The notes beneath the pieces were generated by a model. That model saw nothing but the letters and a program-made list of their open reading frames with translations. It did no database searches and was not told the DNA's origin. A DNA stretch of 64,000 nt, from NCBI RefSeq assembly GCF_008271695.1, contig NZ_VKKY01000001.1, positions 1,668,589 to 1,732,588 on the forward strand. The letters run 5' to 3'. The DNA comes from Rufibacter hautae (GTDB lineage Bacteria > Bacteroidota > Bacteroidia > Cytophagales > Hymenobacteraceae). Numbering within the stretch: the stretch's first letter is position 1; the number at the start of each line of letters is the position of its first letter. The translations under genes were made by a program, and so were the position numbers. Shown in pieces: positions 11,686 to 45,160 of this stretch.

Positions 11686-11693
11686 GGTGGCTC

Positions 11694-12029: not shown

Positions 12030-12044
12030 AAGGATGTTCTAAGA

Positions 12045-12593
12045 TTACATGCGAACAGGTCCGTCTGCTCCTGCTTGTGGCACTGCGCCGGTGATGTTGG
12101 TTTTAATGCTTACCTGATTGATCTGCGGATCAGTGTTGGCCGTGATGGTGATTTGCTTTGACTGCTGACCAGATTTGCCGGTTGGGTCAAATACCACTTT
12201 GATCTGACCGGTTCCGCCCGGGGCAACTGGCTCATGCGGCCACTCAGGAACGGTACAGCCGCAGGTTGCGGAGGCGTTCTCAATGATCAAAGGCGCTTTA
12301 CCCGTGTTGGTGAAGGTGAAGGTGTGCTCCACTTTCTTGTCAGCCTTGATGTCACCAAAGTCAAACTCGGTCTCCTTGAACGTCATGACCGGCTTAGGGG
12401 CATTGGGGTTCACTGCCTCTTGCCCTGTTACGTTAGGGTTGGTGACGGGATCATTGGCGGCAACAGGGGCGCTGCCTTCAGACGCGTTCTGCTCAGTGGC
12501 AGTGGCGGTCTCATCTGTACTTGCTTTTTTCTCGCAGCTAGAGGTCCAAAGGCCACCAGCCAGGAGCAACGCGATTATAAATTGCTTTTTCAT
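12045..12593 (-). CDS. DUF1573 lipoprotein
   Basis: A 182-residue protein with a lipoprotein signal (MKKQFIIALLLAGGLWTSSC), an acidic, low-complexity linker and a DUF1573 Ig-like domain (about residues 75-175). The domain is marked by FDFGDIKADKKVEHTFTFTN and the cysteine pair in ATCGCTVPEWP. DUF1573 proteins are very common in Bacteroidota and are regularly found beside yajC. They are thought to be periplasmic, but no biochemical role is established that I know of. Confidence 0.9.
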   Translation of the reverse strand: MKKQFIIALLLAGGLWTSSCEKKASTDETATATEQNASEGSAPVAANDPVTNPNVTGQEAVNPNAPKPVMTFKETEFDFGDIKADKKVEHTFTFTNTGKAPLIIENASATCGCTVPEWPHEPVAPGGTGQIKVVFDPTGKSGQQSKQITITANTDPQINQVSIKTNITGAVPQAGADGPVRM

Positions 12594-28388: not shown

Positions 28389-29747
28389 CTAGAAACGCAT
28401 GGTGAACGTGGTGCCCTGCCCCAACTCAGAACTCACCGTCAAAGAGCCTTTGTGCAACCGCATGATCTGCCGGGATAAACTCAACCCGATGCCCGTACCG
28501 GTAGCCTTAGTGGTATAAAACGGCAGGAAAATCTGCTCCAGCGCTTCCTCAGCAATGCCGCTGCCGTTGTCGGTGATTTGGATGACCACGCGGCTGTCTT
28601 GGTCCGGGAAGGCTTCTATCTGCAGGGTTTTGGTGGGCTGATCGGCCAAAGCGTGGATAGCATTCCGGATAAGGTTGATGAGCACCTGCTCCACCAGTTC
28701 GCGGTCAGCGAGGACCTGCAGGCCTGTAGAAAGACAATTGACCAGCAGGAGAATGTTCTCGTGCATCAGTTCTTCCTGGAACAGCGTCTGGAGTTGCTTG
28801 AGCATATCGGCCACGGAGAAGAATTTCTTCTTTGGCACCGGCACGCGAGCCAGACTCCGGAAATCCTGCACAAAACGCACCAGTCCCTGGCTGCGGCGCT
28901 CAATGGTCTGCAGGGCCATGCCCATGTCTTCGGTTTCCTCGCGCTGCAGCAGAATCTGCCCATCAGGCTGCGCCTCCAGCACATCCTGGATATCGGCGGC
29001 CACGCTGCCTGCCAGGGAGGAGATAGGCGTCACGGAGTTCATGATCTCGTGGGTGAGCACCCGGATGAGGTTCTGCCAGGCCTCCATCTCCTTTTCCTCC
29101 AGCTCGCGCTGGATGTTCTGGATAGAGGCCAGCCGGAAATCCTCGCCGCGCATCACCAGATCCACCACAAACAGAGACACTGGCACTCGCTCTTTGCTGT
29201 GCTTCAGTTGCAGCACTACGCTCTGCCCGGCAGGCAAAGAAAGTAATTGATCCACCAACTGAGGCGCCTCATTCTTAAGATGTTCCACGTGGGTGAGCTG
29301 CGAAACCTGCAGCAGGCGCTTGGCTGCGTTGTTGATGAGCTGAATCTCGCCCGTTTTCCGGAACGTGATGATGCCGATGCCGATGTGCTGCACCACGGTC
29401 TGGAAATACTGGGTGGTGGCCTCCTTCTCAGAGCGGATGTCGCGGAACTTACTGATGACCTCGTTGTAGCGTTGGTAGAGCTCGTCAAAGACTTTCCCTT
29501 CGCCGCGCGAGGAGAAAACCTCCGAGAAATCATCGTACTTGATGGTGTTCAGGAATTTGATGAGACGTTCGGTGGTGCGCTCAATGAACAAGATCAGTGC
29601 TATGGTCTGCACGGCAATCAGGAGGCCCAACGCTACCTCTGTAGCCACCAGGGAAGACTTGAAATCGAGGCGAAAGAAAAGGAACACGGAGGCTACCAGC
29701 AGCAGCACCCGCAAGATGACCTGAAACCTGAAGTTCTTAAAGCCCAT
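28389..29747 (-). CDS. Sensor histidine kinase (NtrB/PAS type)
   Basis: A 452-residue kinase. Two transmembrane helices lie at about residues 10-26 and 36-55, with almost no periplasmic loop, so the signal is probably sensed in the membrane or cytoplasm. A PAS-like domain covers about 112-205. The phospho-acceptor His233 is in RVLTHEIMNSVTPI, and the ATPase domain has NLIRNAIHAL, DNGSGI and TGTGIGLSLSRQI. The start was chosen at MGFKNFRF; it overlaps the regulator gene's end by 11 bp, showing coupled translation. It should phosphorylate the adjacent NtrC-type regulator. Confidence 0.92.
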   Translation of the reverse strand: MGFKNFRFQVILRVLLLVASVFLFFRLDFKSSLVATEVALGLLIAVQTIALILFIERTTERLIKFLNTIKYDDFSEVFSSRGEGKVFDELYQRYNEVISKFRDIRSEKEATTQYFQTVVQHIGIGIITFRKTGEIQLINNAAKRLLQVSQLTHVEHLKNEAPQLVDQLLSLPAGQSVVLQLKHSKERVPVSLFVVDLVMRGEDFRLASIQNIQRELEEKEMEAWQNLIRVLTHEIMNSVTPISSLAGSVAADIQDVLEAQPDGQILLQREETEDMGMALQTIERRSQGLVRFVQDFRSLARVPVPKKKFFSVADMLKQLQTLFQEELMHENILLLVNCLSTGLQVLADRELVEQVLINLIRNAIHALADQPTKTLQIEAFPDQDSRVVIQITDNGSGIAEEALEQIFLPFYTTKATGTGIGLSLSRQIMRLHKGSLTVSSELGQGTTFTMRF

Positions 29748-31116
29748 ACTTCTCCAGGCGGCGGTACAATGATGCGCGGGACAAGCCCAGTTCCTTTGCG
29801 GCCTTGGAGATGTTACCATCGTACTTGCCCATGGCTTTGACTACGGTGGCCCGTTCCACCTCATCCAGGTTGTGCGTTTGGGGCACGTTTTCAGAAAAGG
29901 CCGGTGATTGCATCTGCAGAAAGAAGAAGTCCTGCGGCTGCAGCACGTGGTTTTCTGAGATGATGGACGCCCGCTCCAGCACGTGTTCCAGCTCCCGGAT
30001 GTTACCCGGCCAGTCATACCGTTTCAGCCGCTCCAGCGCCGCCGCTGAAACCGACTTGGCCGGTTGCTTGTATTTCTGGGCGTAGCGTTTCAGGAAATGG
30101 TCTACCAAGAGCGGCAAATCTTCCAGACGGTCGCGCAATGCCGGCAAATTCAGCTCGATGGTATTGATGCGGTAGAGTAAATCTTGCCGGAAACGGCCCT
30201 GCTGCACCATCTGCTGCAAAGGCATGTTGGTGGCGCAGATCAACCGCACATTGATGGGAATGGGCTGCCCTGTCCCTACCCTGATGACCTCCCGGCGTTG
30301 CAGCACCGTGAGCAGTTTGGCCTGCATGGCCATGGACAGGTTGCCTATTTCGTCCAAAAACAACGTCCCACCGTTGGCCATCTCAAAACGGCCTACTCGG
30401 TCTTCCTTCGCATCGGTGAACGCGCCTTTCTTGTGCCCGAAGAGTTCGCTTTCAAACAAGGTCTCGGTGAGAGAACCCATGTCCACGGAGATGAACACTT
30501 TATCGGCGCGCGCCGATTGCTGATGCAGGCTGCGCGCGATGACTTCCTTGCCCGTGCCGTTCTCGCCCAGAAGCAGGACATCGGCATCGGTTTTGGCCAC
30601 GCGGTTCATGAGGTGCAACAACTGCTGCATGGCCGGGCTTTGGCCGGTGACCAGGTTCACGCCCTGGCTCAGCTGAGAGGCCAGCGCCGAGTTCGTTTTC
30701 TTGAGCGTGGAAATCTCTTTGTAAGAAGTCTTGAGCTTGGACGCCGCCGAGAGCGTGGCAATCAGTTTCTCGTTCTGCCAGGGCTTGAGGACAAAATCGG
30801 TGGCACCTTCTTTCAACGCCCTTACCGCCATCTCCACATCCCCGAAGGCCGTAATCATAATCACCACCGCGCTAGGGTCTTTGGCCAGGATTTCCTTGAG
30901 CCAGTAAAAACCCTCGTTGCCGCTGGTGGTATCCTCGTGGAAGTTCATGTCCAGCAGAATAAGGTCGTAGGTGTCATGGTTCAGGAGGAACGGAATCTTG
31001 CGCGGGTCTTTCTCAATGAGTACCTGCTGGGCATACTTCTTCAGCAGCATCTTGGCTGAGAAAAGAATGTCCTCGTTGTCGTCTATGATCAGGATCTTGC
31101 CTAGGTTCTGTTCCAC
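29737..31116 (-). CDS. Sigma-54-dependent response regulator (NtrC family)
   Basis: A 459-residue regulator in three domains. The receiver (1-120) has Asp56 in LILLDMNFHED. The AAA+ domain (about 155-390) has Walker A GENGTGKE, the sigma-54 contact loop as GAFTDA (a known variant of GAFTGA) and Walker B GGTLFLDEIGNL. A Fis-type helix-turn-helix ends the protein (GNISKAAKELGLSRASLYRR). I chose the GTG start (VEQNLGKILIIDDNED), since an upstream ATG lies beyond the likely transcription start and adds an unlike N-terminus. Tandem palindromic sites upstream suggest autoregulation. Confidence 0.9.
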   Translation of the reverse strand: MEQNLGKILIIDDNEDILFSAKMLLKKYAQQVLIEKDPRKIPFLLNHDTYDLILLDMNFHEDTTSGNEGFYWLKEILAKDPSAVVIMITAFGDVEMAVRALKEGATDFVLKPWQNEKLIATLSAASKLKTSYKEISTLKKTNSALASQLSQGVNLVTGQSPAMQQLLHLMNRVAKTDADVLLLGENGTGKEVIARSLHQQSARADKVFISVDMGSLTETLFESELFGHKKGAFTDAKEDRVGRFEMANGGTLFLDEIGNLSMAMQAKLLTVLQRREVIRVGTGQPIPINVRLICATNMPLQQMVQQGRFRQDLLYRINTIELNLPALRDRLEDLPLLVDHFLKRYAQKYKQPAKSVSAAALERLKRYDWPGNIRELEHVLERASIISENHVLQPQDFFFLQMQSPAFSENVPQTHNLDEVERATVVKAMGKYDGNISKAAKELGLSRASLYRRLEKYGL

Positions 31117-31144: not shown

Positions 31145-31160
31145 CACCTAAACTGTGCCA
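31145..31160 (-). promoter_or_regulatory. Sigma-54-like promoter of the NtrC-type gene
   Basis: Minus strand TGGCACAGTTTAGGTG: the -24 part (TGGCAC) is perfect, while the -12 part (AGGT) is poor. The implied start site lies between this element and the GTG codon. Confidence 0.4.
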
Positions 31161-31223
31161 GACCCGGCAAAAGGCGCTTTCTGGTGCTGGCAAGGTGAAT
31201 TTACAAAATCCCCGGATAGGGTA

Positions 31224-31263
31224 GTGTCCGCGGCTGAACAAAAAAGTGTCCGCTGGTGAACAC
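31224..31263. promoter_or_regulatory. Tandem enhancer-like sites (GTGTCCGC type)
   Basis: Two 18-bp sites start 22 bp apart: GTGTCCGC-GG-CTGAACAA (a half site) and GTGTCCGC-TG-GTGAACAC (14 of 16 positions symmetric with the consensus). They lie roughly 90-130 bp upstream of the expected start of the NtrC-type gene, a normal distance for bacterial enhancer-binding proteins. The same arrangement occurs upstream of the exporter operon near 39.2 kb. Confidence 0.65.
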
Positions 31264-31281
31264 TTGCTTCAGCCTTATTCT

Positions 31282-31320
31282 CTGTTTTGGACCTCTTTTA
31301 CCGAAAACGATGCTAAAACG
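31282..31320. repeat. Intergenic palindrome, family A
   Basis: CTGTTTTGGACCTCTTTT with GAAAACGATGCTAAAACG. It lies just upstream of the enhancer-like sites. Confidence 0.5.
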
Positions 31321-31355
31321 GATTTCAGGTTAATTTGCCATCGGGCACGTTTTTG

Positions 31356-31382
31356 TAGGGGCAATCCCTTGTGGTTGCCCTA
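31356..31382 (+). repeat. Palindromic element F (TAGGGGCAATCCC)
   Basis: TAGGGGCAATCCC-TTG-TGGTTGCCCTA forms an imperfect hairpin. An inverted copy 330 bp downstream brackets elements C and D. Confidence 0.65.
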
Positions 31383-31491
31383 CCGCCGGCCACCGCTAAA
31401 CAAGTTGTTATTGATAACACCAACATGGCGTAACGGAACACGCATTCCGTACTCCTGTGAAGGCTCAGGATGATTCATTCACAAGAAATTC

Positions 31492-31560
31492 TGGTTCAAG
31501 TTTTTAACTTGGACCTACCATGCCTGGAAGTTTGCAACTTCCGTGAGGCGAAAGCCTCAA
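31492..31560 (+). repeat. Dispersed element C (triple hairpin)
   Basis: TTCAAGTTTTTAACTTGGA, GGAAGTTTGCAACTTCC and GTGAGGCGAAAGCCTCA in order. The middle stem differs from the 15.6-kb copy on both arms, so pairing is kept by compensating changes. Confidence 0.7.
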
Positions 31561-31604
31561 ACTGGTTTTGCTGATCTGAAAACAGTAAGTTTGACGCCAG
31601 AAAG

Positions 31605-31635
31605 AACCCACCCCTACCCCTCCGAGGAGGGGAAT
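31605..31635 (-). repeat. Dispersed element D, inverted copy
   Basis: Reverse complement of the 9.9-kb copy, with the full CCCCTCCGAGGAGGGG palindrome. Confidence 0.7.
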
Positions 31636-31709
31636 CTCCCCCTATGGCCATTGTTGCCGCCGTTGTTGCGTGTTCTCACGGACAACCCCAATAACTGTGG
31701 CATGCGAAA

Positions 31710-31734
31710 GGGCAACCACAAGGGATTGCCCCTA
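31710..31734 (-). repeat. Palindromic element F, inverted copy
   Basis: GGGCAACCACAAGGGATTGC followed by CCCTA, the reverse complement of the copy near 31.36 kb. Confidence 0.65.
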
Positions 31735-31765
31735 CTTTGAAATGCGCAGGAACTTATGTAAAGTC

Positions 31766-31804
31766 CTGTTTAGGGCCTCTTTTCTGAATAACAGGCTCAA
31801 AAAG
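31766..31804. repeat. Intergenic palindrome, family A, at end of cyclase gene
   Basis: CTGTTTAGGGCCTCTTTTC with AACAGGCTCAAAAAGG, 20 bp beyond the cyclase stop codon. Confidence 0.55.
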
Positions 31805-31824
31805 GAAATCTTTGCCAACGGCCT

Positions 31825-32787
31825 TTACTCTACCTTGGCGGCAGCGGCGGCATACTCATAAGGTTTCCCGATGAGCATGACCTCAAAGGCGTTGCTCACC
31901 CCCTTGAGGTTGATTTTGGCGGTTCTCACCGAATAAGGAGGATTCCTTAGCATGCCGTAGGCGGCCTCGGAGATCACGAAGCTGTTGTTCAGTTCTTTGG
32001 TGGCGGCCTGCAAACGCGCCGCTACGTTCACCGGAAAGCCCATCACCGAGAGGCTGTTGTTCAGCCCGATGCCCACGTTGCCGTAGATCACCTGCCCCAC
32101 GTGCACGCCAATGCCTACCTCAAAGAAATGGTTGAAATACGCCCGCATGTAGGTGTTGTTGAAGATCTTGACATCCTCCAGAATCTTGATCCCGGCAAAT
32201 ACCGCCGACTCGGTGGCCATTTTGATGTTCGTGTCCAGACCGAAAACGGCATACACGCCATCGCCGGCCGTGTCAATGATCTTGCCGCCGTAATGTTCAA
32301 TGGCGTTCCGGAAGAGGGTGATGATACGGCGCATGATGTGGATCACATCAAACGGAAGGTTGGCTTCCATGAAGGGCGTGAAATTGCGGATGTCAATGAA
32401 GAACAAGGCCATTTTCCGCCGTTTCCCTATGGCTTCTGAGCCGTCTTCGGGGGCTCCGTTGAGGAAGATGTAGCGGTCTGTGTCGTCTTTGATGAGCCGG
32501 TGCACCTGCACGCCCTCTCCTTTTACGTTGGTCTGGCAGGCCAACCGCACGTTGTCGGGGAGCTTTCTAACTTCGCGCACCATCCTTTCGCAGCTGTTGA
32601 TCTCGGAGAGTTGCTCGGCGCCCTGCAGCACCAGCACGCGGCAGGTGGTGCACTCCCCTTTTCCGCCGCAGGCGTGGTAATGCGGGATGCCAGCAGCCAA
32701 AGATGCCTCCAACAGGGTTTGGCTTTCCGCTATTTGGACTGTTTTCTCGCCTTTGAACTCTACCTGCACGGTCATATTCTGGCACAT
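31825..32787 (-). CDS. Ferredoxin-class III nucleotide cyclase fusion
   Basis: A 320-residue protein. The N-terminal 2Fe-2S ferredoxin domain has ligands Cys40, Cys46, Cys49 and Cys84 (CGGKGECTTC then LACQ). The C-terminal class III cyclase domain (about 122-300) has metal aspartates Asp132 (FFIDIRNFT) and Asp176 (DTAGDGVYAVFG) and catalytic Asn254/Arg258 (PVNVAARL). The two purine-recognition positions are unusual: Lys is replaced by Asp172, and the Asp/Thr position by Phe251. Redox control of nucleotide synthesis is an inference. A second Met at codon 5 may be the true start. Last gene of a minus-strand run. Confidence 0.82.
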   Translation of the reverse strand: MCQNMTVQVEFKGEKTVQIAESQTLLEASLAAGIPHYHACGGKGECTTCRVLVLQGAEQLSEINSCERMVREVRKLPDNVRLACQTNVKGEGVQVHRLIKDDTDRYIFLNGAPEDGSEAIGKRRKMALFFIDIRNFTPFMEANLPFDVIHIMRRIITLFRNAIEHYGGKIIDTAGDGVYAVFGLDTNIKMATESAVFAGIKILEDVKIFNNTYMRAYFNHFFEVGIGVHVGQVIYGNVGIGLNNSLSVMGFPVNVAARLQAATKELNNSFVISEAAYGMLRNPPYSVRTAKINLKGVSNAFEVMLIGKPYEYAAAAAKVE

Positions 32788-32816
32788 TAACGGTTAGGGT
32801 AGTACCTGCGGGCGCC

Positions 32817-33095
32817 CTACTTTTTCACCAGCGACTGGTACTCGGGGTGTTTCTTCAGGTAAGCCGCCATGTACGGGCACAGCGGAATCAGCTCCATGTT
32901 CTCCTTCTGCAGGTATTCCAGCACCTGCTTGGACAAAGCCGCCGCAATGCCCCGGCCTTCCAGTTCCTCGGGGACCTCGGTGTGCAGCACGGTCATGACC
33001 TTGTCTTTCAGCCTATAGCTCACCAGGGCGGTTTTGCCCTCCATAGTGGTTTCAAATTGATGCTTGGCCGTGTTGTTCCTGATCTCTGCTTCCAT
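32817..33095 (-). CDS. Small GNAT-family acetyltransferase (YjdJ-like)
   Basis: A 92-residue minimal GNAT protein of the COG2388 type. The acetyl-CoA loop is ELEGRGIAAALSKQVLEYL (residues about 44-62), followed by the conserved ELIPLCPYMAAYLKKHPEY end with its cysteine. Such small GNATs are often found in stress operons; substrates are generally unknown. It lies 32 bp from the esterase gene upstream and 29 bp from the cyclase gene downstream, all on one strand. Confidence 0.85.
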   Translation of the reverse strand: MEAEIRNNTAKHQFETTMEGKTALVSYRLKDKVMTVLHTEVPEELEGRGIAAALSKQVLEYLQKENMELIPLCPYMAAYLKKHPEYQSLVKK

Positions 33096-33127
33096 GTAAA
33101 GGGTTCTTTCTCTCTAAGATAAGAAGA

Positions 33128-33766
33128 TTATTCACTCTCCTGGGTTCTGGTCAGGATTTCTTTTGCCAGTTCCAGCTCTTCCTGCAGAATGGTGTGGGGC
33201 CGGCCTTTGTAGATTTTCTTCGTGACCACGGCGATGTGCGCCTCCAGCACCTGCACCGTCTCCTCTACCCGGCTCACGGGCACGTGTGGGTCTGGGTCAC
33301 CGGTGGTAATCAGAACGGGGGTGTTTTTGAAATTGCCTTTGTAGTTGCTGGTATCCAGTTGGGGACCTATCAGCCCGCCGGTAAACAGGAACAGACCGCC
33401 GAATTGCTGGGCGTTTCTGGCAGCGTACTCAGAGGTAAGGCAGGCACCCTGGGAAAAGCCCAGCAAATAGATGTTCTGACTGCTGATTCCCTCGCCCGCC
33501 ATGGATTTCACCAGGTCATGGATCTGGTCCAACGCCGAGTCCAGCGCCGGTTGGTTCTGCTCGGTGGGCGCCATGAAACTGTAGGGGTACCAGCTGTGGT
33601 TAGAGGCCTGCGGCGCGAAAAGCGAGAAATCATCTACCGGCAGGTAATCAGCCAAAGAAAGAATACTTTCCGCGGAGGCGCCTCGCCCGTGGATCATGAT
33701 CAGGGCCTTACCGGTCTGGGACAAAGGCTTGCCGTGGGTGATAACGTGTCTTTCGTGCGTATACAT
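33128..33766 (-). CDS. Phospholipase/carboxylesterase-family alpha/beta hydrolase (MhqD-like)
   Basis: A 212-residue cytoplasmic hydrolase. The oxyanion region is MIHGRGASAESIL and the nucleophile elbow GFSQGACL (Ser near residue 111). The acid is in TGDPDPHVP and the His in KGRPHTI. Members called MhqD act with quinone-cleaving dioxygenases in the Bacillus electrophile response, which fits the dioxygenase, flavin reductase and pirin genes in this run. It sits 9 bp from the flavin reductase gene. Confidence 0.85.
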   Translation of the reverse strand: MYTHERHVITHGKPLSQTGKALIMIHGRGASAESILSLADYLPVDDFSLFAPQASNHSWYPYSFMAPTEQNQPALDSALDQIHDLVKSMAGEGISSQNIYLLGFSQGACLTSEYAARNAQQFGGLFLFTGGLIGPQLDTSNYKGNFKNTPVLITTGDPDPHVPVSRVEETVQVLEAHIAVVTKKIYKGRPHTILQEELELAKEILTRTQESE

Positions 33767-33775
33767 AAGAAGGCT

Positions 33776-34339
33776 TTAGTGTAACACTTGGTTGACCTGG
33801 GTGGCCTGAATGGCTTGCCCTAACCACAGAAAATCTTCCAGAAATTTATCCAGCCGGCCAGCGTATGCGGCATCTGTCAACTGCCCGTCCTGGAACAGCG
33901 TCTGCACTTTGGGGGTGAGAAGCGCATTGGGCAGCACAATCCCGTTCAGGGTAAGGGCGTAGTGCTGCAGGCTTTTGGCCGCGTTGATCCCGCCCAGCAT
34001 GCCCGCCGAGACCGCCACAATCCCGAAGGGTTTATGGAAGTACTCTTTGTAGAAGTAGTCCAGGGTATTTTTCAGAGCACCGGAGTAGCTTCCGTTGTGC
34101 TCCGGCGACACCATCACCAAACCGTCGCTCTGGGCAATGGCAGCGCTGGTCTCCTTCATCAGATCAGAAGGGTTGGGGGTTTTGTCAAAGGTGTTCTCCA
34201 GTAACGGGAAATTGAGCTCCCGCACGTCCAGCAGGTGAACGCTGTGTCCCTTTTCTTCCAGTCTTCGCCCTACTTCCAACGCCACCTGGTGTGACTGCCG
34301 CTGCGGGCGGGCACTCCCAGATACTACTACTAGTTTCAT
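33776..34339 (-). CDS. NAD(P)H-dependent FMN reductase
   Basis: This 187-residue flavodoxin-fold oxidoreductase begins KLVVVSGSARPQRQSHQVAL, the FMN phosphate loop, and has the family motif SPEHNGSYSGALKNTLDYF (about residues 79-97) with GGINAAKSLQ. It likely reduces quinones or azo compounds with NAD(P)H through FMN. In this gene run it would supply two-electron quinone reduction next to ring cleavage. Confidence 0.9.
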   Translation of the reverse strand: MKLVVVSGSARPQRQSHQVALEVGRRLEEKGHSVHLLDVRELNFPLLENTFDKTPNPSDLMKETSAAIAQSDGLVMVSPEHNGSYSGALKNTLDYFYKEYFHKPFGIVAVSAGMLGGINAAKSLQHYALTLNGIVLPNALLTPKVQTLFQDGQLTDAAYAGRLDKFLEDFLWLGQAIQATQVNQVLH

Positions 34340-34372
34340 GTGTGTTTTTTTAGAATGATGGGCAAACCGCCG

Positions 34373-34738
34373 CTATTGCGGTTTCAAGGTAACAAAAATG
34401 GAGCTCCTAACCGCGGGCAGCAGGTTTCTGGTGCGGTGGCCTTTGCCAGTGGTGTCTTCCACCAGCAGAATGTCGCCGGTTTTGAAGGGCCGTTTCTCGC
34501 CCAGTGAGGTTTCTATCTCAATCTCGCCGTCCAGGAGCACTATGTATTGCCGGGCGGGGGCGCAGTGAAAATCATAGTCATAGCTGGGCAACACCTTCCG
34601 GAAGATGATGCTTTCCACTTCCTCGGCATCAGAGAGAAAGCCAATCTCCCCTGCGGAGTGCAGGGGCTTGGCCAATTGGGCAAAATGGCTCTCGCCGCTT
34701 TCATCCGCGTACACGCGGGTGATGTTGAATACTTCCAT
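34373..34738 (-). CDS. Cupin-fold protein
   Basis: A single-domain 121-residue cupin-like protein with HCAPARQYIVLLDGEIEIET (motif 1 area) and KTGDILLVEDTTGKGHRTRN (motif 2 area with His). It is small and lacks a signal peptide. Single cupins beside dioxygenases are often small-molecule-binding or isomerising proteins; this one has no assignable reaction. Same-strand spacing suggests co-transcription. Confidence 0.75.
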   Translation of the reverse strand: MEVFNITRVYADESGESHFAQLAKPLHSAGEIGFLSDAEEVESIIFRKVLPSYDYDFHCAPARQYIVLLDGEIEIETSLGEKRPFKTGDILLVEDTTGKGHRTRNLLPAVRSSIFVTLKPQ

Positions 34739-34741
34739 TTT

Positions 34742-34774
34742 GGGGCTGTTTTTCCCGAAACGGCCCTATAACCG
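34742..34774. repeat. Intergenic palindrome, family A-like
   Basis: GGGGCTGTTTTTCCC with an adjoining CCGAAACGG/CCGTTTCGG inverted pair between the cupin and dioxygenase genes. Confidence 0.5.
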
Positions 34775-34802
34775 TTTCGGGAGTGATGGTGCCTAGACCG
34801 GT

Positions 34803-35744
34803 TTAGTCAAGGTTGGGCAGAACCGCTTCAATATCGGCACGGCGCGGCTCATACTGCGGCGGCAGCAACAGGCTGGAGCCCAGCTGGTCCCAAGGCTCGT
34901 CAATCCCGAAGCCCGGGTTGTCCGTCGCGATCTCAAACAGCACCCCACCCGGCTCGCGGAAGTAGAGCGAGTAGAAGTAGTTGCGGTCAATTTTCTCGGT
35001 GATCTGCAGCCCCAAACCGGCACGTCTTACCTTCTCCTGGAACTGCATGAGGGTTTCCTCATCTTTCACCCGGAAGGCGATGTGGTGGTTGGTGCCGGCC
35101 CCGCCGATGCCACGGGCCTCGTTGGGCAACTCTACCAGGTCAATGATGGCCGCATGCTCCACCGCATCGGTGCTATAGCGGTAACGATTGCCGCTTTTCT
35201 CCTGCAGGGTGTAGCCAAACACATCCGTAAGGACGGCGGCGGTGCCTTTGATGTCGCGCAATGTTAGCGTCACACTGTGGAAACCTTTGGTGGCCACGGC
35301 GGCTTTGATTTCGTCGGTTTCCCAGGCCACGCGGTTGTCAGGGTTTTTAGGGATCACCAACTCCAGCTTGAGGCCATCAGGGTCCAGGAAGGTCAGGTAC
35401 TGCTCCCCGAATTTCTCAGAGGGCTTGTTGTAGATGACGTTGTGCTTCTCAAAACGGTCTATCCAGAAATCGAAGCTACCCTCGGGCACCGAGTAGCCGA
35501 TGTTGGTGGCCATACCGGTGCCGGCGCTGCCGCGGCGGGCTTCTTCGTAGGGGAAGAACGTCAGAATAGTGCCAGCACTGCCGCGCTCATCGCCGTAGTA
35601 CAGGTGGTAGGTGCCCGGATCGTCAAAGTTGACGGTTTTCTTGAGCAGGCGCAGCCCCAACACTTTGGTGTAGAAGTCCACGTTCTTTTTGGCCTTTCCG
35701 GCAATAGCCGTGATATGGTGCAGGCCTAATATTCTGTTTTCCAT
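34803..35744 (-). CDS. Ring-cleaving dioxygenase (VOC family, MhqO-like)
   Basis: A 313-residue two-module VOC protein. The first module starts ILGLHHITAIAGKAKKNVDF with the metal-ligand His. The second (from about residue 150) includes GFHSVTLTLRDIKGTAAVL and GGAGTNHHIAFRVKDEE, and FREPGGVLFEIATDNPGF supplies the Glu. Family members cleave hydroquinone or catechol rings with Fe(II); MhqA/MhqO types belong to quinone-stress regulons. It is 6 bp from pirin, and neighbours are consistent with electrophile detoxification. Confidence 0.9.
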   Translation of the reverse strand: MENRILGLHHITAIAGKAKKNVDFYTKVLGLRLLKKTVNFDDPGTYHLYYGDERGSAGTILTFFPYEEARRGSAGTGMATNIGYSVPEGSFDFWIDRFEKHNVIYNKPSEKFGEQYLTFLDPDGLKLELVIPKNPDNRVAWETDEIKAAVATKGFHSVTLTLRDIKGTAAVLTDVFGYTLQEKSGNRYRYSTDAVEHAAIIDLVELPNEARGIGGAGTNHHIAFRVKDEETLMQFQEKVRRAGLGLQITEKIDRNYFYSLYFREPGGVLFEIATDNPGFGIDEPWDQLGSSLLLPPQYEPRRADIEAVLPNLD

Positions 35745-35750
35745 GATGGC

Positions 35751-36461
35751 TTAGTGATTGATAGGCACCTCTATGAGGAGGAATTTACTATCGGTTGAAA
35801 AGCTGAAATCTAAGGTATCCGTTTCCCAGATGCCCACGGCATCGCGCTGGTTTAGCGTCTGGCCGTTTACCTGGAGCGTACCGCTGATGTTGAAGACGAA
35901 CACGCCTTTGTTCAGCGGCTTGAAGGAATACGTGTACGTCTGCCCTTGTTCAAAGGAGCCCAGGGAGAGCTTCGCGTTCTGGTTTATCCAGCAGTGGGCC
36001 TGGCCTTCCTCGTTGCTCACGATGGTGACCAGCTGGTTCAGGCGCTTTTCCTCTGGGAAGAACCGGCGCTGGTAGCGGGGCGTGATGTTCTGCAACTTGG
36101 GTTCAATCCAGATCTGCAGAAAGTTCACCTCGTCCTGGCCCACGTTGTGTTCCTCGTGGCGCAGGCCGCTGCCGGCGCTCATGATCTGCACCCAGTCTTT
36201 GTGCACCACCTCTTTGTAGCCCAGTGAGTCTATGTGGTTCATGGCCCCCGAGAGCATCACCGAGATAATCTCCATGTTGGCGTGCGGATGGATGCCGAAA
36301 CCGTTCTCAGGCTGCACGTAGTCATCATTGAAGACCCGCAGCAACCCAAAACCCGCCCGCACCGGGTTGTAGTGGCTAGAGAAACTGAAGATGAAATTAC
36401 TCTTCAGCCAGCCCAGGTCTTTGAGGCCTCTGTCTCCGGGATAATATCTTTTGAATTGCAT
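35751..36461 (-). CDS. Pirin-family protein
   Basis: A 236-residue bicupin. The metal site is in FGIHPHANMEIISVMLSG and SGLRHEEHN (His, His, His and Glu ligands). The first domain begins FKRYYPGDRGLKDLGWLKSN. Pirins bind iron, and some, like E. coli YhhW, oxygenate quercetin. Their presence with MhqO-type dioxygenases is common. I chose MQFKRYYPG as the start; an ATG 11 codons upstream lies in non-conserved sequence. Confidence 0.9.
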   Translation of the reverse strand: MQFKRYYPGDRGLKDLGWLKSNFIFSFSSHYNPVRAGFGLLRVFNDDYVQPENGFGIHPHANMEIISVMLSGAMNHIDSLGYKEVVHKDWVQIMSAGSGLRHEEHNVGQDEVNFLQIWIEPKLQNITPRYQRRFFPEEKRLNQLVTIVSNEEGQAHCWINQNAKLSLGSFEQGQTYTYSFKPLNKGVFVFNISGTLQVNGQTLNQRDAVGIWETDTLDFSFSTDSKFLLIEVPINH

Positions 36462-36560
36462 TTTAGGTCGATTTAATGATGTTTGTACGAGCAAAACCCG
36501 AAAAGGACCAGAATCTACTCACCAGAAACCGAAGCCGCAGCCTCGGTCTCCGGTGGCGTC

Positions 36561-37109
36561 TTAGCCTTGTTTCACCAACTGGATCTCGGCCTGCAGTTTG
36601 ATCTCGTCGCTTACCACTACGCTTCCGGCCTCGGTTACGGCGTTCCAGGTTAACCCGAACTCTTTGCGGCTGATTTTACCTGTTACTGTGAAACCGGCTT
36701 TGGTCTGGCCGTAAGGGTCTACCACAATCCCGCCGAACTCCACTTTCACCGTCACTGGTTTGGTGATGCCTCTTATGGTCAAATCGCCGTGCAGTTGGTA
36801 ATCATCGTCGCCTACGTTCTCGTATTTGCTGCCCACAAACCGGATCTCCCCGTGGTTTTCCGCGTCAAAGAAATCAGCTGATTTCAGGTGGGTGTCGCGC
36901 TGCTCGTTGTTGGTGTTGATGGAGTTCACATCGGCGGAGAACACTACGCTGCTGGCGCTGGTGAACTGCTCATCCTCGGTCTCCGCCTCCACGTGGAAGC
37001 TCTGGAAATAGCCGGTCACGGTGGTGATCATCAAGTGTTTCACCTTGAACTGTACTTCTGAGTGCATTGGGTCTACTGCCCATTTGGTAGTTGCGATGGT
37101 AGTTTCCAT
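36561..37109 (-). CDS. YceI-family protein (cytoplasmic form)
   Basis: A 182-residue lipocalin-like protein without signal peptide. Hallmarks are KWAVDPMHSEVQFKVKHLMI at the start, DFFDAENHGEIRFVG in the middle and DLTIRGITKPVTVKVEF. YceI proteins bind isoprenoid quinones or similar lipids in a beta-barrel. As the first gene after the palindromic operator it probably leads the electrophile-stress operon. Confidence 0.92.
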   Translation of the reverse strand: METTIATTKWAVDPMHSEVQFKVKHLMITTVTGYFQSFHVEAETEDEQFTSASSVVFSADVNSINTNNEQRDTHLKSADFFDAENHGEIRFVGSKYENVGDDDYQLHGDLTIRGITKPVTVKVEFGGIVVDPYGQTKAGFTVTGKISRKEFGLTWNAVTEAGSVVVSDEIKLQAEIQLVKQG

Positions 37110-37156
37110 TATCTTACTTTTTGGTTAGTTTAAATTCTCTTTCTGTGTTGATAAAA

Positions 37157-37164
37157 CAAATGTA
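37157..37164 (-). promoter_or_regulatory. Promoter -7 box (TACATTTG) of the YceI-led operon
   Basis: TACATTTG on the minus strand, about 48 bp before the YceI start codon, matches TAnnTTTG. It lies inside the palindromic operator. The upstream -33 element is not obvious. Confidence 0.5.
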
Positions 37165-37192
37165 TATACATTTAATGTACATACATACATTT
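37158..37192. promoter_or_regulatory. Palindromic operator (tandem ATGTA..TACAT sites)
   Basis: A perfect 16-bp palindrome AAATGTATATACATTT is followed directly by AATGTACATACATACATT, an imperfect second site. It overlaps the -7 box, so a repressor bound here would block transcription. MarR/HxlR-type dimers bind such sites. No regulator gene is found beside it. Confidence 0.6.
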
Positions 37193-37193
37193 T

Positions 37194-37476
37194 GACCCAA
37201 AAGTTTCAAAATATTTTCACGAGGTCTGTGCAACATTGAAAGCTGGGTTTATTCAACCAGTGAAGAACGCTCAGAATCAGACTTGCCTACCCTACCGAAA
37301 AACCTTTTTTCGCCAACTCCTCAATGGCAGCACAAAACAAAAATAAGGCAAGTACTATAGGATGTATCTCCACTCCATGTAGCGCCTGCCATGAATTAAG
37401 CCTGATATTGTAAAATTGGCTTCAAAATGAGGTAAGTAGGGTGCCGCAATGCCATGGGGTTATATGAGTGGTTAAG
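37194..37476. other. Intergenic region, nothing further identified
   Basis: Spacer between the operator and the convergent end of the next hydrolase gene; no ORF, hairpin or promoter was recognised. Confidence 0.4.
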
Positions 37477-38376
37477 CTATTGGATGCCCACAATCCAGTT
37501 CTTTAGATCTGCGGCATCGGCAATGTTCCAGGAGTGGAATCCTCTGCCTTTTGTTTGAATAAGCTCAGCCCTTAGATTGCCTATTTTCTTAAGGAACGTA
37601 GAAAGGCCTTCTAAATCCGTGGCGTTTATATCTGCCATCTGTAGTTTTTGGCAGTACTTCTTTCTGACAAATTCCAGATCTGGCTCACAGTATAACCTGA
37701 TTGGAATATCTTTCAGGAGGCGGGCATTTCCCCCATCCTGGGCAGTAGCTGAATAGGCAGAGGAATTTAAGTACGCTGCTGGCTTTGCCTCGGGAGGGCC
37801 TCCTAAGCGTGTGTCAAGGGTGTTCTTCAGACTATGCCCCTCCTTGCTTATCAGGTCAGAACAGTGATAACCTATCTTATTCACGGCCGAGCGATAAATC
37901 CTTTCTAGGTCTAGGGGCGCATCTATCACAAAGACTCCTTTGATTTTCCGGGATGAACCAGATTTGATTAAGTATTCTGCATAGCCTACGGCCACTGCCC
38001 CTCCCGCGGAAAACCCACCGATTACAATAGGTATGTCCTGCAGGTTGTATTTGGCATATTCTGCTTCCAGTATTTGGTCAAGCTTAAACTTTGCATGGTC
38101 ATCTGCAAACAAAGTGTGCTGGAGTTCCGGGAAAATGACCAGATAGCCTTGTTTCTCTAACAGGGCAGGAATTTGGGTCTTCTGGGGTATTTCTTTGGTC
38201 TTTTCGCCAAAACCCTGCAAAAGGACCAGCACGCCTTTCACCTCCTTTTCAGGTTTGGTTGTAAAGTAAGCATCCGCTCCTTTGGCACTGGCAATTTTAA
38301 CTCTCTGTAACCTCTGACCTATACAAGTAACACAGACCAGAAAACTCAAGCCTATAAATAGAGCTACCCTTTTCAT
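37477..38376 (-). CDS. Exported alpha/beta-hydrolase-like protein
   Basis: A 299-residue protein with a signal peptide or lipoprotein-like start (MKRVALFIGLSFLVCVTCIG). The core has LVLLQGFGEKTKEIPQ, the nucleophile elbow IGGFSAGGAVAVGYAEYL (Ser near residue 118) and a late GFHSWNIAD where a His could complete the triad. It resembles an esterase or peptidase of the dienelactone-hydrolase class, but substrate is unknown. Its base composition is lower in GC than its neighbours, which could reflect transfer. Confidence 0.65.
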   Translation of the reverse strand: MKRVALFIGLSFLVCVTCIGQRLQRVKIASAKGADAYFTTKPEKEVKGVLVLLQGFGEKTKEIPQKTQIPALLEKQGYLVIFPELQHTLFADDHAKFKLDQILEAEYAKYNLQDIPIVIGGFSAGGAVAVGYAEYLIKSGSSRKIKGVFVIDAPLDLERIYRSAVNKIGYHCSDLISKEGHSLKNTLDTRLGGPPEAKPAAYLNSSAYSATAQDGGNARLLKDIPIRLYCEPDLEFVRKKYCQKLQMADINATDLEGLSTFLKKIGNLRAELIQTKGRGFHSWNIADAADLKNWIVGIQ

Positions 38377-38481
38377 GCCTATCCTTACAATTGATACAGG
38401 ACTAAGCTACCCGAAATTCTTGGGTTATCTAAAAGCCTGCCCAAGAAATAATTTATGAGGCTTCTCAGGAGCGCCTTATCC

Positions 38482-38937
38482 TTATTTCTGCTGCGGTACA
38501 GACTGCCACAACACGTTCATGACCCACCACTTGCCTTCTTCTTTCACCAGGTGTATGTAGTCAATGCCCCATACCGCCGTGACTTTCGCCGAGGCTGTTT
38601 TGTCGCAAATGTCCAGGATCTGCACTTTCTGCACGGAGTTCTCATTAGCCTGCTTGCCGTTAGCGTTCCAGCGCTTGGCCAAACTCACCAGTGCTTGAAA
38701 AGGCATCTCCAGCTGTTTTGAATAGGTCTGGTTCGCGGCCGAATAGGAAAAGCCGCGCTTCTGCAGCAAAGGATGCACGCTGCGGTAGGCAATGGTGGTG
38801 TCTGCCTTGTAGAAGGCCTGAATGTAGTCTTGGCAGGCAGCGGTGACCCCGGCTCGGTCCTGCTCCGTGGACACACACTGGGCCCAACCAGCCGAGAGAG
38901 AGAACGAAAACAGCAAGGCAGCGAAAAGTTTCTTCAT
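38482..38937 (-). CDS. Exported NTF2-like (putative lumazine-binding type) protein
   Basis: This 151-residue protein has a signal peptide (MKKLFAALLFSFSLSAGWAQ). The mature part follows the NTF2-like/Lumazine_bd_2 pattern: GVTAACQDYIQAFYKADTT, HPLLQKRGF, and the closing DYIHLVKEEGKWWVMNVLW. Such periplasmic proteins are common in Bacteroidota and mostly lack a known role. Confidence 0.75.
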   Translation of the reverse strand: MKKLFAALLFSFSLSAGWAQCVSTEQDRAGVTAACQDYIQAFYKADTTIAYRSVHPLLQKRGFSYSAANQTYSKQLEMPFQALVSLAKRWNANGKQANENSVQKVQILDICDKTASAKVTAVWGIDYIHLVKEEGKWWVMNVLWQSVPQQK

Positions 38938-39101
38938 ATTATAGTTAGGGTTTAGGTTTAGTCAAGACCATGAACAGCCCGCAGCCTATCTGTGGCCGCT
39001 TTCACTACTTTAGACATTCTTCAGGGGAAACTCCCTTAAGCGGATATAAAACTTAGCTGGGCATTGGGCAGCCTGTCACTTGCGGTTCTGGGAAGCGAAG
39101 C

Positions 39102-39138
39102 TGTTTTTGCCCTGTTTCCCAGAAAAGACGCAGAAAAC
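39102..39138. repeat. Intergenic palindrome, family A (degenerate)
   Basis: GTTTTTGCCCTGTTTCCC with GAAAAGACGCAGAAAAC upstream of the enhancer-like sites. Confidence 0.45.
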
Positions 39139-39166
39139 CCCAATGGGCTGCACGCTGGGCGGGGGA

Positions 39167-39205
39167 ATGTTCGGGCATGAACAAAAAGTGTACGCCAGCG
39201 GACAC
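39167..39205. promoter_or_regulatory. Tandem enhancer-like sites upstream of exporter operon
   Basis: The proximal site GTGTACGC-CA-GCGGACAC is symmetric at 14 of 16 positions. A distal, degenerate site TGTTCGGGCATGAACA starts 21 bp earlier. The proximal site lies about 80-95 bp upstream of the predicted sigma-54 start. Both sequence and spacing match the pair near 31.24 kb. Confidence 0.65.
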
Positions 39206-39257
39206 TTTTCAAATTAACAAAATAATAAATCTACTGATTATCAACAGTTTATAAACC

Positions 39258-39273
39258 CGGCACAGCAATTGGG
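39258..39273 (+). promoter_or_regulatory. Sigma-54-like promoter of the HlyD/MacB operon
   Basis: CGGCACAGCAATTGGG keeps GGCAC at -24 and TTG at -12 with exact 10-bp spacing; only the -12 C is G. The start codon lies 28 bp downstream. Confidence 0.55.
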
Positions 39274-39300: not shown

Positions 39301-40551
39301 ATGGACCGTATCATAGAAAAGAAGCGTTGGACACCCAAGAAGATCGCAGCCTACATAGGAGGCATCCTGCTGATCGCCTTGGCCACCTACCTCATCGCCT
39401 TCGCCGATAACAGCTCTAAACTGAACGTGGAAAGCCAGAAGATCACCATGGCCACTGTGAGCCAGGGTTCTTTCCAAGAGTTTATTCCGGTAGACGGCAC
39501 CGTGCACCCCATCAAAACCATCCTGATTCCGGCGGTGGAAGGCGGCACCGTAGACGAGAAATACCTGGAGGGCGGCAAGCCCGTGAAACAAGGCGATCCC
39601 ATCCTGAAACTCACGAACAACCGCCTGGTGCTGGACTTCATGAACCAGGAAACGCTCATGAATGACCTTATCAACAACCTGCAGAACTCCAAGCTGAGCC
39701 TGCAGCAGAACAAATTCAACCTGCGCCGCCGCCTGGCTACCTTAAACGCCCAGGTAGATGCCGCCAAAGATATCTATGAGCGCAACATTTCTTTGTATGA
39801 GGCCAAGGCCGTGTCACAGCAAGAATTCCTAGGTTTTAAAAGAGAATATGACCGCCTGAAAGCCGAACGGGTCATTGAACTGGAATCGCAGAAGTTTGAG
39901 GAAAGCAACGCCCGCCAGCAGATTGCCCAACTGGAAACCACCATTGCCCGCACCAGCCGCAACCTGCACATGATGGAAGACAACCTCAAGAACCTGTACA
40001 TCAAAGCACCTATCTCAGGGCAGCTTTCCTCTATTCAGGTGGAGTTGGGAACACCGGTGCAGTCGGGCCAGGTAATTGGTCAGATAGATGACCTGAGCGG
40101 CTTCAAAGTGAAAGCCGAGCTGGACCAGCATTACGTGAGCCGCGTCTTTGCCGGGCAGCAAGCATCCTTCACCTACAACGGCCAAAGCTATCCGCTGGAA
40201 ATTGCCCTGGTGTACTCAGAGGTGACCAACGGCCGCTTCCCGATTGACATGAAGTTCATTGGCAAGGTACCGGAGGGCATCCGGCGCGGTCAGACCCTGC
40301 AGATCAGATTGCAGTTGTCAGACCCGGCTCCGGCAGTGTTGCTACCCCGCGGAGGGTTCTACCAGAGTACCGGCGGCGCCTGGGCCTACGTTTTGGATGG
40401 ATCCGGAAAAGTAGCCTCGAAACGCAGCATCCGGTTGGGCCGCCAGAACCCAGAGTACTATGAGGTACTGGAAGGCCTGAAACCCGGCGAGCAAGTGATT
40501 GTCTCCTCCTATGACGCCTTCAACGACAAGGATAAGCTGGAGCTGAAGTAA
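39301..40551 (+). CDS. HlyD-family efflux adaptor (RND/MacA-like periplasmic subunit)
   Basis: A 416-residue adaptor with one N-terminal membrane anchor (about residues 15-35). A lipoyl half-motif occurs before and after a long alpha-hairpin: VDEKYLEGGKPVKQGDPIL and IKAPISGQLSSIQVELGTPV. The hairpin covers about 125-225. Beta-barrel and membrane-proximal domains follow, ending GLKPGEQVIVSSYDAF. It would link the MacB-like ABC permease downstream to an outer-membrane channel. No TolC-type gene lies in the window. Confidence 0.9.
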   Translation: MDRIIEKKRWTPKKIAAYIGGILLIALATYLIAFADNSSKLNVESQKITMATVSQGSFQEFIPVDGTVHPIKTILIPAVEGGTVDEKYLEGGKPVKQGDPILKLTNNRLVLDFMNQETLMNDLINNLQNSKLSLQQNKFNLRRRLATLNAQVDAAKDIYERNISLYEAKAVSQQEFLGFKREYDRLKAERVIELESQKFEESNARQQIAQLETTIARTSRNLHMMEDNLKNLYIKAPISGQLSSIQVELGTPVQSGQVIGQIDDLSGFKVKAELDQHYVSRVFAGQQASFTYNGQSYPLEIALVYSEVTNGRFPIDMKFIGKVPEGIRRGQTLQIRLQLSDPAPAVLLPRGGFYQSTGGAWAYVLDGSGKVASKRSIRLGRQNPEYYEVLEGLKPGEQVIVSSYDAFNDKDKLELK

Positions 40552-40832: not shown

Positions 40833-41522
40833 ATGTTAAAGACCGTCAACCTTCAAAAGAAATATACCACCGATGAGGTGGAGACTACCGCGTTGGTGAA
40901 TGTGAACCTGAACGTGCGCCAGGGCGAGTTCGTGGCCATCATGGGGCCATCGGGCTGCGGAAAATCCACGCTGCTCAACATCATTGGGTTGCTGGACAAC
41001 CCAACCAGCGGTGAGTTCTTTTTCCTGGAGAAGGAGATCTCTAAGTTCAGTGAGCGCCAGCGCGCGAACCTGCGCAAAGAGCACCTGGGGTTTGTGTTCC
41101 AGAGCTTCAACCTGATTGATGAACTGACGGTGTACGAGAACGTGGAACTGCCTTTGATCTACCTGAAGGTGAGCAACGCCGAGCGCAAACAGCGCGTGGA
41201 GCAGGTGCTGGAGCAGATGCAGATCGCGCACCGCCGCAACCACTTCCCGCAGCAACTCTCGGGCGGTCAGCAGCAACGGGTGGCCATTGCCCGCGCCGTG
41301 GTGTCTAAACCTAAATTGCTTCTAGCGGATGAGCCCACCGGTAACCTGGACTCGGCCCACGGCCAGGAAGTGATGCAACTCCTGAGCAGCCTTAACGAGC
41401 AAGGCACCACCATTGTGATGGTAACCCACTCCCCCACCGATGCCGACTACGCCCACCGCATTGTGAATCTGTTTGACGGTCAGATCATCTCTGAGAATGT
41501 GAAAGAGCTCGCCATTCTGTAA
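40833..41522 (+). CDS. ABC transporter ATPase (MacB/LolD type)
   Basis: A 229-residue stand-alone ATPase. Walker A is GPSGCGKST, the signature LSGGQQQR and Walker B LLLADEPTGNLDS, with the His switch in MVTHSPTDADYA. The LADEPTGNLDS motif is characteristic of the MacB/LolD/FtsE group, which power mechanotransmission permeases. It is 11 bp from the FtsX-type permease gene, with which it should form the transporter. Confidence 0.93.
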   Translation: MLKTVNLQKKYTTDEVETTALVNVNLNVRQGEFVAIMGPSGCGKSTLLNIIGLLDNPTSGEFFFLEKEISKFSERQRANLRKEHLGFVFQSFNLIDELTVYENVELPLIYLKVSNAERKQRVEQVLEQMQIAHRRNHFPQQLSGGQQQRVAIARAVVSKPKLLLADEPTGNLDSAHGQEVMQLLSSLNEQGTTIVMVTHSPTDADYAHRIVNLFDGQIISENVKELAIL

Positions 41523-44272: not shown

Positions 44273-45160
44273 ATGAACAAAGAAAGCGCCGCAGCCCTCA
44301 AAGGCAAGAAAAAGCAAATTCTGGATACCTGGATGGCCAACCAGACCAAAGATGCCGCCCTCCGCGATGACCTTATGAGCGTAGCAGAGTTGCAGCAGCA
44401 ATCAGAGGAATTCCTGAACTCCTTGCTAAAAGCTTTTGCCTCCTCCCAGGCAGAAAACCCTGACTCGGCGGGGTATGAGCCCATCCACGATATCCTGAGC
44501 GAGATCTCCATCTCCCGGGCGCGCCAGGGCTTTTCTCCGCGCGAGACCAGTGCCTACATCCTCAGCCTCAAAGAGGTGTTGAGCCAGACCCTGGAAGAGC
44601 GCTACAAAGATGACACCACCGTTTTGTACCGCGAGATTATCTCCATGAACAAAATCATGGACAGCCTGAGCCTGGTAACCACGGAAACCTACATCAAAGG
44701 CCGCGAAGAGGTCATCCTGCGCCAGACCAGCGAGATGAGTGAGATTTCCACCCCCGTGATCAGGGTTTGGGAAGGCATCCTGGCGCTCCCTATCATCGGA
44801 ACCCTGGACAGTGCCCGCACTCAGGTGGTAATGGAAGCCCTGCTGGAGGAGATTGTAGCCACGGGCAGCCGTATTGCCATCCTGGACATCTCCGGGGTGC
44901 CTACCGTTGACTCCCTGGTGGCCCAGCATTTGATCAAAACCGTGAGCGCCGCCCGCCTGATGGGGGCCGAGTGCATCATCAGCGGTATCCGCGCCGAGAT
45001 CGCCCAGACCATTGTGCACCTGGGTATTGACCTCACCAACATCTACACCAAAGCCACCCTGGCTAGCGCCTTGAAGATGTCCTTCAGCATGCTGAATATT
45101 CAGGTAACACGGGCATCCCAGAACGGCCCGATTGGCTCTAAACAGAATTTCGGGTTTTAA
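44273..45160 (+). CDS. rsbR: RsbR-like stressosome protein (RsbRD N-terminus plus STAS)
   Basis: A 295-residue protein. Residues about 10-145 are helical, in the style of RsbRD-type sensor domains, and lack a membrane segment. A STAS domain spans about 155-275 with AILDISGVPTVDSLVAQHL and ISGIRAEIAQTIVHLGIDL. Ser214 (in PTVDS) and Thr246 (in AEIAQT) fall near the two phospho-acceptor positions known for this family. RsbR and RsbS build the stressosome core that captures RsbT. Gene order R-S-T-X follows. Confidence 0.9.
   Translation: MNKESAAALKGKKKQILDTWMANQTKDAALRDDLMSVAELQQQSEEFLNSLLKAFASSQAENPDSAGYEPIHDILSEISISRARQGFSPRETSAYILSLKEVLSQTLEERYKDDTTVLYREIISMNKIMDSLSLVTTETYIKGREEVILRQTSEMSEISTPVIRVWEGILALPIIGTLDSARTQVVMEALLEEIVATGSRIAILDISGVPTVDSLVAQHLIKTVSAARLMGAECIISGIRAEIAQTIVHLGIDLTNIYTKATLASALKMSFSMLNIQVTRASQNGPIGSKQNFGF

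Follow-up and report, generated by a model that had tools for sequence, protein, structure and literature searches.

In a 64,000-nucleotide stretch of the Rufibacter hautae genome (contig NZ_VKKY01000001.1, positions 1,668,589 to 1,732,588; hereafter the window), an NtrC-type response regulator gene, here called REG, and a divergent HlyD-ABC-permease exporter operon are each preceded by a pair of closely spaced palindromes. Very probably, REG acts via these tandem palindromes to switch on the exporter in a sigma-54-dependent manner, and the pair before its own gene controls the amount of REG. The link between regulator, enhancer and exporter operon, which an earlier note on this DNA had proposed, is strongly supported because the sites are conserved, the synteny is kept, regulator and permease are absent together from the genome that lacks either, and the exporter has a sigma-54-type promoter. 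The genes and elements concerned are as follows, in window coordinates.

28389-29750, minus strand: sensor histidine kinase (PF02518, scored on the open reading frame 28389-29819)
29737-31116, minus strand: REG, NtrC-type response regulator (Pfam PF00072 receiver, PF00158 sigma-54 AAA+ and PF02954 Fis-type helix-turn-helix, all scored on a longer open reading frame reaching 31170)
31147-31160, minus strand: -24-like element of REG, TGGCACAGTTTAGG; the -12 element is not canonical
31225-31240, no strand: REG-proximal palindrome, TGTCCGCGGCTGAACA
31247-31262, no strand: REG-distal palindrome, TGTCCGCTGGTGAACA, a pattern match
39168-39183, no strand: exporter-distal palindrome, TGTTCGGGCATGAACA, a pattern match
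39189-39204, no strand: exporter-proximal palindrome, TGTACGCCAGCGGACA, a pattern match
39239-39251, plus strand: IHF-like site TATCAACAGTTTA between enhancer and exporter promoter, a match to WATCAANNNNTTR
39259-39272, plus strand: sigma-54-type exporter promoter, GGCACAGCAATTGG
39301-40551, plus strand: HlyD/RND-type periplasmic adaptor (PF13437; TIGR01730 above its cut-off)
40833-41522, plus strand: ABC exporter ATPase (PF00005)
41534-43945, plus strand: duplicated MacB/FtsX-type permease of 803 amino acids (PF12704 and PF02687, two stretches each)

The 16-bp palindromes (TGTNC-N6-GNACA) start 22 bp apart before REG and 21 bp apart before the exporter operon. The sequences, coordinates (31224-31263 and 39167-39205) and spacings reported in the earlier note are correct, as is the shared flanking sequence that it described: TGAACAAAAA is common to both pairs and lies on the plus strand at both, despite the divergent orientation of the genes. 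The 5.84-Mb genome contains just two exact matches to GTGTNCGCNNGNGNACAC, one at each promoter of the REG/exporter system. With up to three mismatches, GTGTCCGCNNGCGGACAC has two matches in the window against an expectation of 0.24, and two or more turn up in 4 of 100 shuffles; the strict palindrome form alone is only moderately unlikely by chance in the window. With at most one mismatch, the tandem pattern with a 5-base gap is found genome-wide at two forward places (the exporter and a small-protein gene), and that with a 6-base gap also at two (REG and an outer-membrane-protein gene), the reversed-pattern controls giving none in either case. A stricter form with the 5-base gap and up to three mismatches yields three places, those at the exporter and the small-protein gene plus one next to a GroES-like gene, again with no control match. 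Across 16 genomes of the genus, the 5-base-gap pattern occurs at one to five places each, and the control gives 1, 1 and 2 forward matches in three genomes. The paired sites at REG and the exporter are real and far beyond chance. Single loose palindromes were dropped as candidates: with up to two mismatches, GTGTNCGCNNGNGNACAC matches 35 forward and 36 reverse places in the R. hautae genome, little above the 24 and 28 of the reversed-pattern control.

REG is present in 15 of the 16 genus genomes at 90-100% identity. The exporter is divergent from it in 13 of them (the window included), at a distance of 0.9 to 8.2 kb, and in two others (G002 and G004) the contig ends and the exporter was found on another contig. 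The REG pair matches TGTNC-N6-GNACA without mismatch in all 15 promoters; the exporter pair does so in 10 of 13 and with one mismatch in the other three, and the exporters of G002 and G004 also carry pairs. In aligned promoters, the pairs appear as conserved islands amid diverged sequence. Lack of conservation in related strains had been named beforehand as an outcome that would speak against the proposed operator; pairs within one mismatch precede both units in 15 of the 16 genomes, that is, in all that have REG. Position 6 of the sites is A or G, and position 4 is T in 52% and C in 35%, in a set picked with TGTNC, so that those letters are partly by construction. The predicted operator frame is TGTYCR-N4-YGRACA, and the strict GTGTCCGC-N2-GCGGACAC operator of the earlier note proved too narrow, as the fourth and inner letters vary in the genus.

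The orthologs of REG and of the permease occur together in the same 15 genomes and are both absent from the remaining one (G015), where the best matches have 51% identity to REG and 34% to the permease. At this locus (L155), the HlyD, ABC and RsbR genes are kept, and REG, the kinase and the permease are missing together: neither REG nor the kinase gene was found between their usual neighbours (2990-3460), and the ABC gene is followed by approximately 0.7 kb (11478-12199) without a recognisable permease.

With regard to the promoters, the earlier note had described sigma-54-like GGCACA boxes in both. The boxes are present, at 39259-39264 on the plus strand and at 31159-31154 on the minus strand, approximately 54 and 65 bp from the nearer palindrome core, and they lie 43 bases from the start codon at REG and 42 at the exporter; a -12 element accompanies the exporter box. 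The exporter promoter is sigma-54-like as judged from its elements: GGCAY-N5-TTG, with GG at -24 and TTG at -12, is found in all 13 exporter promoters of the genus, the -12 element reading TTGG or TTGA, not TTGC, and a single rpoN is present in the R. hautae genome. Between operator and promoter, matches were sought to WATCAANNNNTTR, the consensus of Escherichia coli IHF. It is matched perfectly in 3 of the 13 exporter promoters and with at most one mismatch in 6, compared with 0.3% and 8% of shuffles. In the exporter promoters of group D (a paralogous group described below), 1 of 15 matches perfectly and 12 do so within one mismatch; before the small-protein gene, the figures are 8 and 10 of 11. 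Over all promoter sets, shuffles give 0.2-0.4% perfect matches and 3-10% within one mismatch. Where a match has at most one mismatch, it stands 33-35 bases past the operator in groups A and D (33-34 in the exporter promoters of the genus) and in 7 of 10 cases at the small-protein gene.

Four NtrC-type regulators stand beside exporters in the R. hautae genome, each with its own palindrome variant, and the palindrome conserved in each of the paralog groups B, C and D follows the frame of the REG sites. In group B, TGCACG, TGTACG or TGTCCG is combined with CGTACA (8 of 8 loci), and in group C the 5′ half is TGTGCG and the other half CGCACG or weaker (11 of 11). All 15 group D loci have TGTCCA-N4-YGGACA starting 110-114 bases before HlyD, together with TGGCAY-N5-TTGG. 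The test proposed in the earlier note, for the 18-mer before FtsX/MacB genes in general, would fail if taken literally, in that the other MacB-type exporters here adjoin paralogous regulators with other palindromes, and a single 18-mer common to every MacB-type exporter was rejected on the same grounds. Altogether, the genome has 11 PF00158 matches, of which 7 are strong; four of the strong ones lie near MacB-type permeases, REG within approximately 11 kb and the other three closer. A fifth lies approximately 11 kb from another MacB-type gene, and the stretches read there show no good palindrome pair. The loci at C1:507/509 kb, C1:325 kb and C1:104 kb have no good tandem pair, and L054 and L154 have weak pairs at 18, 19, 25 and 34 bp; these were set aside.

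The letters of the recognition helix correlate with the half-site's fourth base, in counts that ignore kinship and rest on half-sites fitting TGTnC. The helix SRG is associated with TGTCC in 37 of 38 half-sites of group A relatives, and in 30 of 30 in group D, the latter taken from 15 exact palindromes only; a tally over group D sites picked with the TGTCC pattern was excluded. The SRAS helix in group A occurs with TGTTC in 43 of 68 half-sites and with TGTCC in 25. As TRTA is paired with two different half-sites, TGTAC in group B (16 of 19) and TGTGC in group C (9 of 9), other letters of the helix matter too.

Outside the genus, the permease gene is divergent from REG and starts within approximately 0.6 kb of it in three genomes of two other genera (REG identity 70-74%; L112-L114), and no exporter gene was found in the 20-kb stretches from three genomes of other families (61-64%; L115-L117). 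A broader set comprised the best 80 of 436 loci with distant REG relatives, from Pontibacter, Cyclobacteriaceae, Roseivirga, Labilibaculum, a few metagenome-assembled genomes labelled Ignavibacteriae, Zixibacteriota, KSB1 and Aminicenantes, and others. Among the 78 with 450 bp upstream, a pair at 20-23 bp spacing is present in 26 with at most one mismatch and in 33 with at most two, while none was obtained from 390 shuffles, from 390 stretches elsewhere or, with the reversed pattern, from the 78 regions, and other spacing classes gave 0-3 of 78. An exporter gene starts divergently within 1 kb at 20 of the 80 loci, 11 of which have the pair with at most one mismatch. With 60 of the 80 loci covering 9 kb upstream, a divergent exporter was found within 10 kb at 33 and none at the other 47, and an exporter lies upstream on the same strand at one locus and downstream at two.

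The observed sites, their conservation, the synteny, the shared absence in one genome, the promoter elements and rpoN suggest the following course of events. The adjoining membrane kinase probably phosphorylates REG, which would sit on two TGTYCR-N4-YGRACA palindromes, two helical turns apart, before the exporter operon. Bending of the DNA, in many species at the IHF-like site, would bring the AAA+ ring of REG to sigma-54 polymerase at GGCAY-N5-TTG, and the polymerase would then switch on the HlyD-ABC-permease genes. The pair before REG would allow the regulator to control its own amount, with sigma-54 activation as the less certain route.

Several points weigh against this scheme. The shared absence of REG and the permease comes from one genome, which keeps the exporter promoter with one exact palindrome in spite of lacking REG. 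The IHF-like match has two mismatches at best in 7 of the 13 exporter promoters. The dependence of the helix counts on kinship and on the TGTnC pattern has been mentioned. In the distant set, no pair was found even with two mismatches in 45 of 78 upstream regions, and where an exporter starts within 1 kb, 9 of 20 loci lack a pair with at most one mismatch; together with the 47 loci without a divergent exporter, these counts indicate that the pairing of REG with an exporter is common and that neither the pair nor the exporter is universal. Finally, the REG promoters of the genus have GGCAY-N5-TTG in 0 of 15 cases and an IHF-like site with at most one mismatch in 0 of 15.

The last two counts favour a variant of the same scheme, not exclusive with it, in which REG binds both pairs and at its own promoter represses or merely modulates a promoter that is not sigma-54-dependent, the exporter alone being activated through sigma-54. 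This variant, which we consider somewhat less than evenly probable, has to account for TGGCAYARTTTNRG, which is kept in 15 of 15 REG promoters, and for the nearly equal distances of the two -24 boxes in the window from their start codons. The sigma-54 self-activation claimed in the earlier note therefore stands in part: the pair and TGGCAYARTTTNRG are there in all 15 genus promoters, and a normal -12 element and an IHF-like site are not.

It is improbable that the palindromes bind another regulator, such as a repressor or a global factor, with REG being an incidental neighbour. The exact palindrome retained before HlyD in G015 would fit such a factor, but the pairs track REG relatives across several phyla, the exact form is found nowhere else in the genome, and the paralogous regulators have variant palindromes of their own. 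That the palindromes work at the RNA level, as hairpins or terminators, and not as DNA operators is hardly credible: similar-looking pairs beside a GroES-like gene (L298 and L118) do combine into a single long inverted repeat with a T run past the stop codon, but the pairs in the window lie upstream of the predicted start sites, and the 20-23 bp spacing, unlike others, persists in distant relatives. The two TGTTCGCTTCCGAACA-type pairs inspected, L298 and L118, out of a type that has similar members elsewhere in the genus, were not counted, as they lie past the stop of the GroES-like gene (so named by eye) and look like a terminator hairpin; at approximately 1500-1540 in both, the inverted repeat mimics a tandem operator.

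In NtrC-family systems, the general layout consists of tandem upstream sites two turns apart, an IHF site and a -24/-12 promoter. REG shares the domain order of this family, and its palindromes, likewise in tandem at a distance of two turns, are combined with an IHF-like site and a -24/-12 promoter. The REG system differs in its predicted target (HlyD, ABC and a duplicated permease), in the site TGTYCR-N4-YGRACA, and in having GAFTDA in place of GAFTGA. The GAFTDA loop, already pointed out in the earlier note, reads GA[FY]TDA in 9 of 9 aligned orthologs. REG combines receiver, sigma-54 AAA+ and Fis-type helix-turn-helix domains in one protein, as is characteristic of NtrC-type regulators. The upstream activator site of NifA is TGT-N10-ACA, and the REG sites share this outer layout; however, their inner letters C and R are constrained, and REG has a receiver domain and scores below the cut-off of the NifA model NCBIfam TIGR01817 (342.6 versus 528.85 bits).

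The best NCBIfam match of REG is the PrsR model TIGR02915, at 400.3 bits, below the curated cut-off of 502.6. PrsK/PrsR comprises a kinase and an NtrC-like regulator with a predicted operator and a sigma-54 box, and its targets are PEP-CTERM genes (PMC1569441). This is the nearest precedent found, with the same kinase-regulator-operator-sigma-54 layout as for REG, whereas the predicted target of REG is an exporter and REG lies below the PrsR cut-off. A 2025 promoter survey reports an enrichment of COG0577 permeases among the genes with predicted sigma-54 promoters, in Bacteroidia as well as in further classes, and calls this link to FtsX-type systems first evidence (PMC12316311). In the portion of the survey available, no activator or operator for FtsX-type permeases was found, whereas REG and its palindromes are proposed here. 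The palindromes treated in the available part of PMC4641369 are other ones, and the text of PMC3162934 has no mention of bacteroid, exporter, ABC transport or palindrom. No published description of this operator or regulator was found, in a search that reached few subscription papers; the arrangement is classical in kind, with an operator that is apparently undescribed. A concrete activator and operator are thereby proposed for Bacteroidota exporter operons, for which the statistical sigma-54 link alone was found in print, as far as the available portion of the survey goes (PMC12316311). The four exporter-adjoining regulators with distinct palindromes also provide a set for testing regulator-operator specificity.

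Some gene assignments deserve further detail. The start of REG is probably the GTG at 31116, set by ortholog alignment and kept in 15 of 15 genus loci. The gene of the sensor histidine kinase overlaps the 3′ end of REG and adjoins REG in the genus loci. The permease scores below the cut-off for MacB proper (PRK10535; 70 versus 966 bits), the ATPase being separate and not fused, and below that of the ADOP duplicated permease TIGR03434 (320.8 versus 622.3 bits), in a match that spans nearly its whole length. The scores for the darobactin exporter DarBCD are likewise below the cut-offs (DarB 166.3 versus 700, DarC 197.3 versus 450 and DarD 295.3 versus 375 bits).

A further possible target is a gene for a protein of 54-69 amino acids with a hydrophobic N-terminus, which in 11 of the 16 genus genomes is found with a tandem pair exactly 21 bp apart (at most one mismatch) and a TGGCAY box. 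In the R. hautae genome, it is as follows.

L152 7512-7964 (C1:1995511 onwards): small-protein unit (68 amino acids, gene from 7761) with tandem palindromes, an IHF-like site and a sigma-54-type box

The pair is also present in G003, where the stretch covered ends before the gene, and the stretches read from G001, G004, G009 and G015 contained no such gene, although three of these four genomes have REG. The protein has no NCBIfam model match and, from its hydrophobic start as seen by eye, is perhaps exported. A predicted leader of approximately 130 bases also looks conserved by eye. It is conceivable, if rather doubtful, that REG controls this small exported protein together with the exporter, that the two form a peptide-release or envelope-sensing circuit, and that the paralogs with diverged palindromes keep exporter circuits running in parallel in the same cell insulated from one another.

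At L153 8048-8105, three consecutive palindromes and a TGGCAC box precede a gene for an outer membrane beta-barrel or TonB-dependent-like protein; a gene for a class II tRNA synthetase points away from it. An exact pair in G005 (L160, approximately 6622) lies beside an open reading frame for an outer membrane protein with 32% identity to the L153 protein. Within the window, a gene at 31825-32787, on the upstream side of REG as in many genus loci, encodes a fusion of a 2Fe-2S ferredoxin domain and an adenylate/guanylate cyclase domain. Directly after the exporter operon, a gene for a protein with an RsbR-like N-terminal domain and a STAS domain (44273-45160 and onwards) is conserved throughout the genus loci, G015 included.

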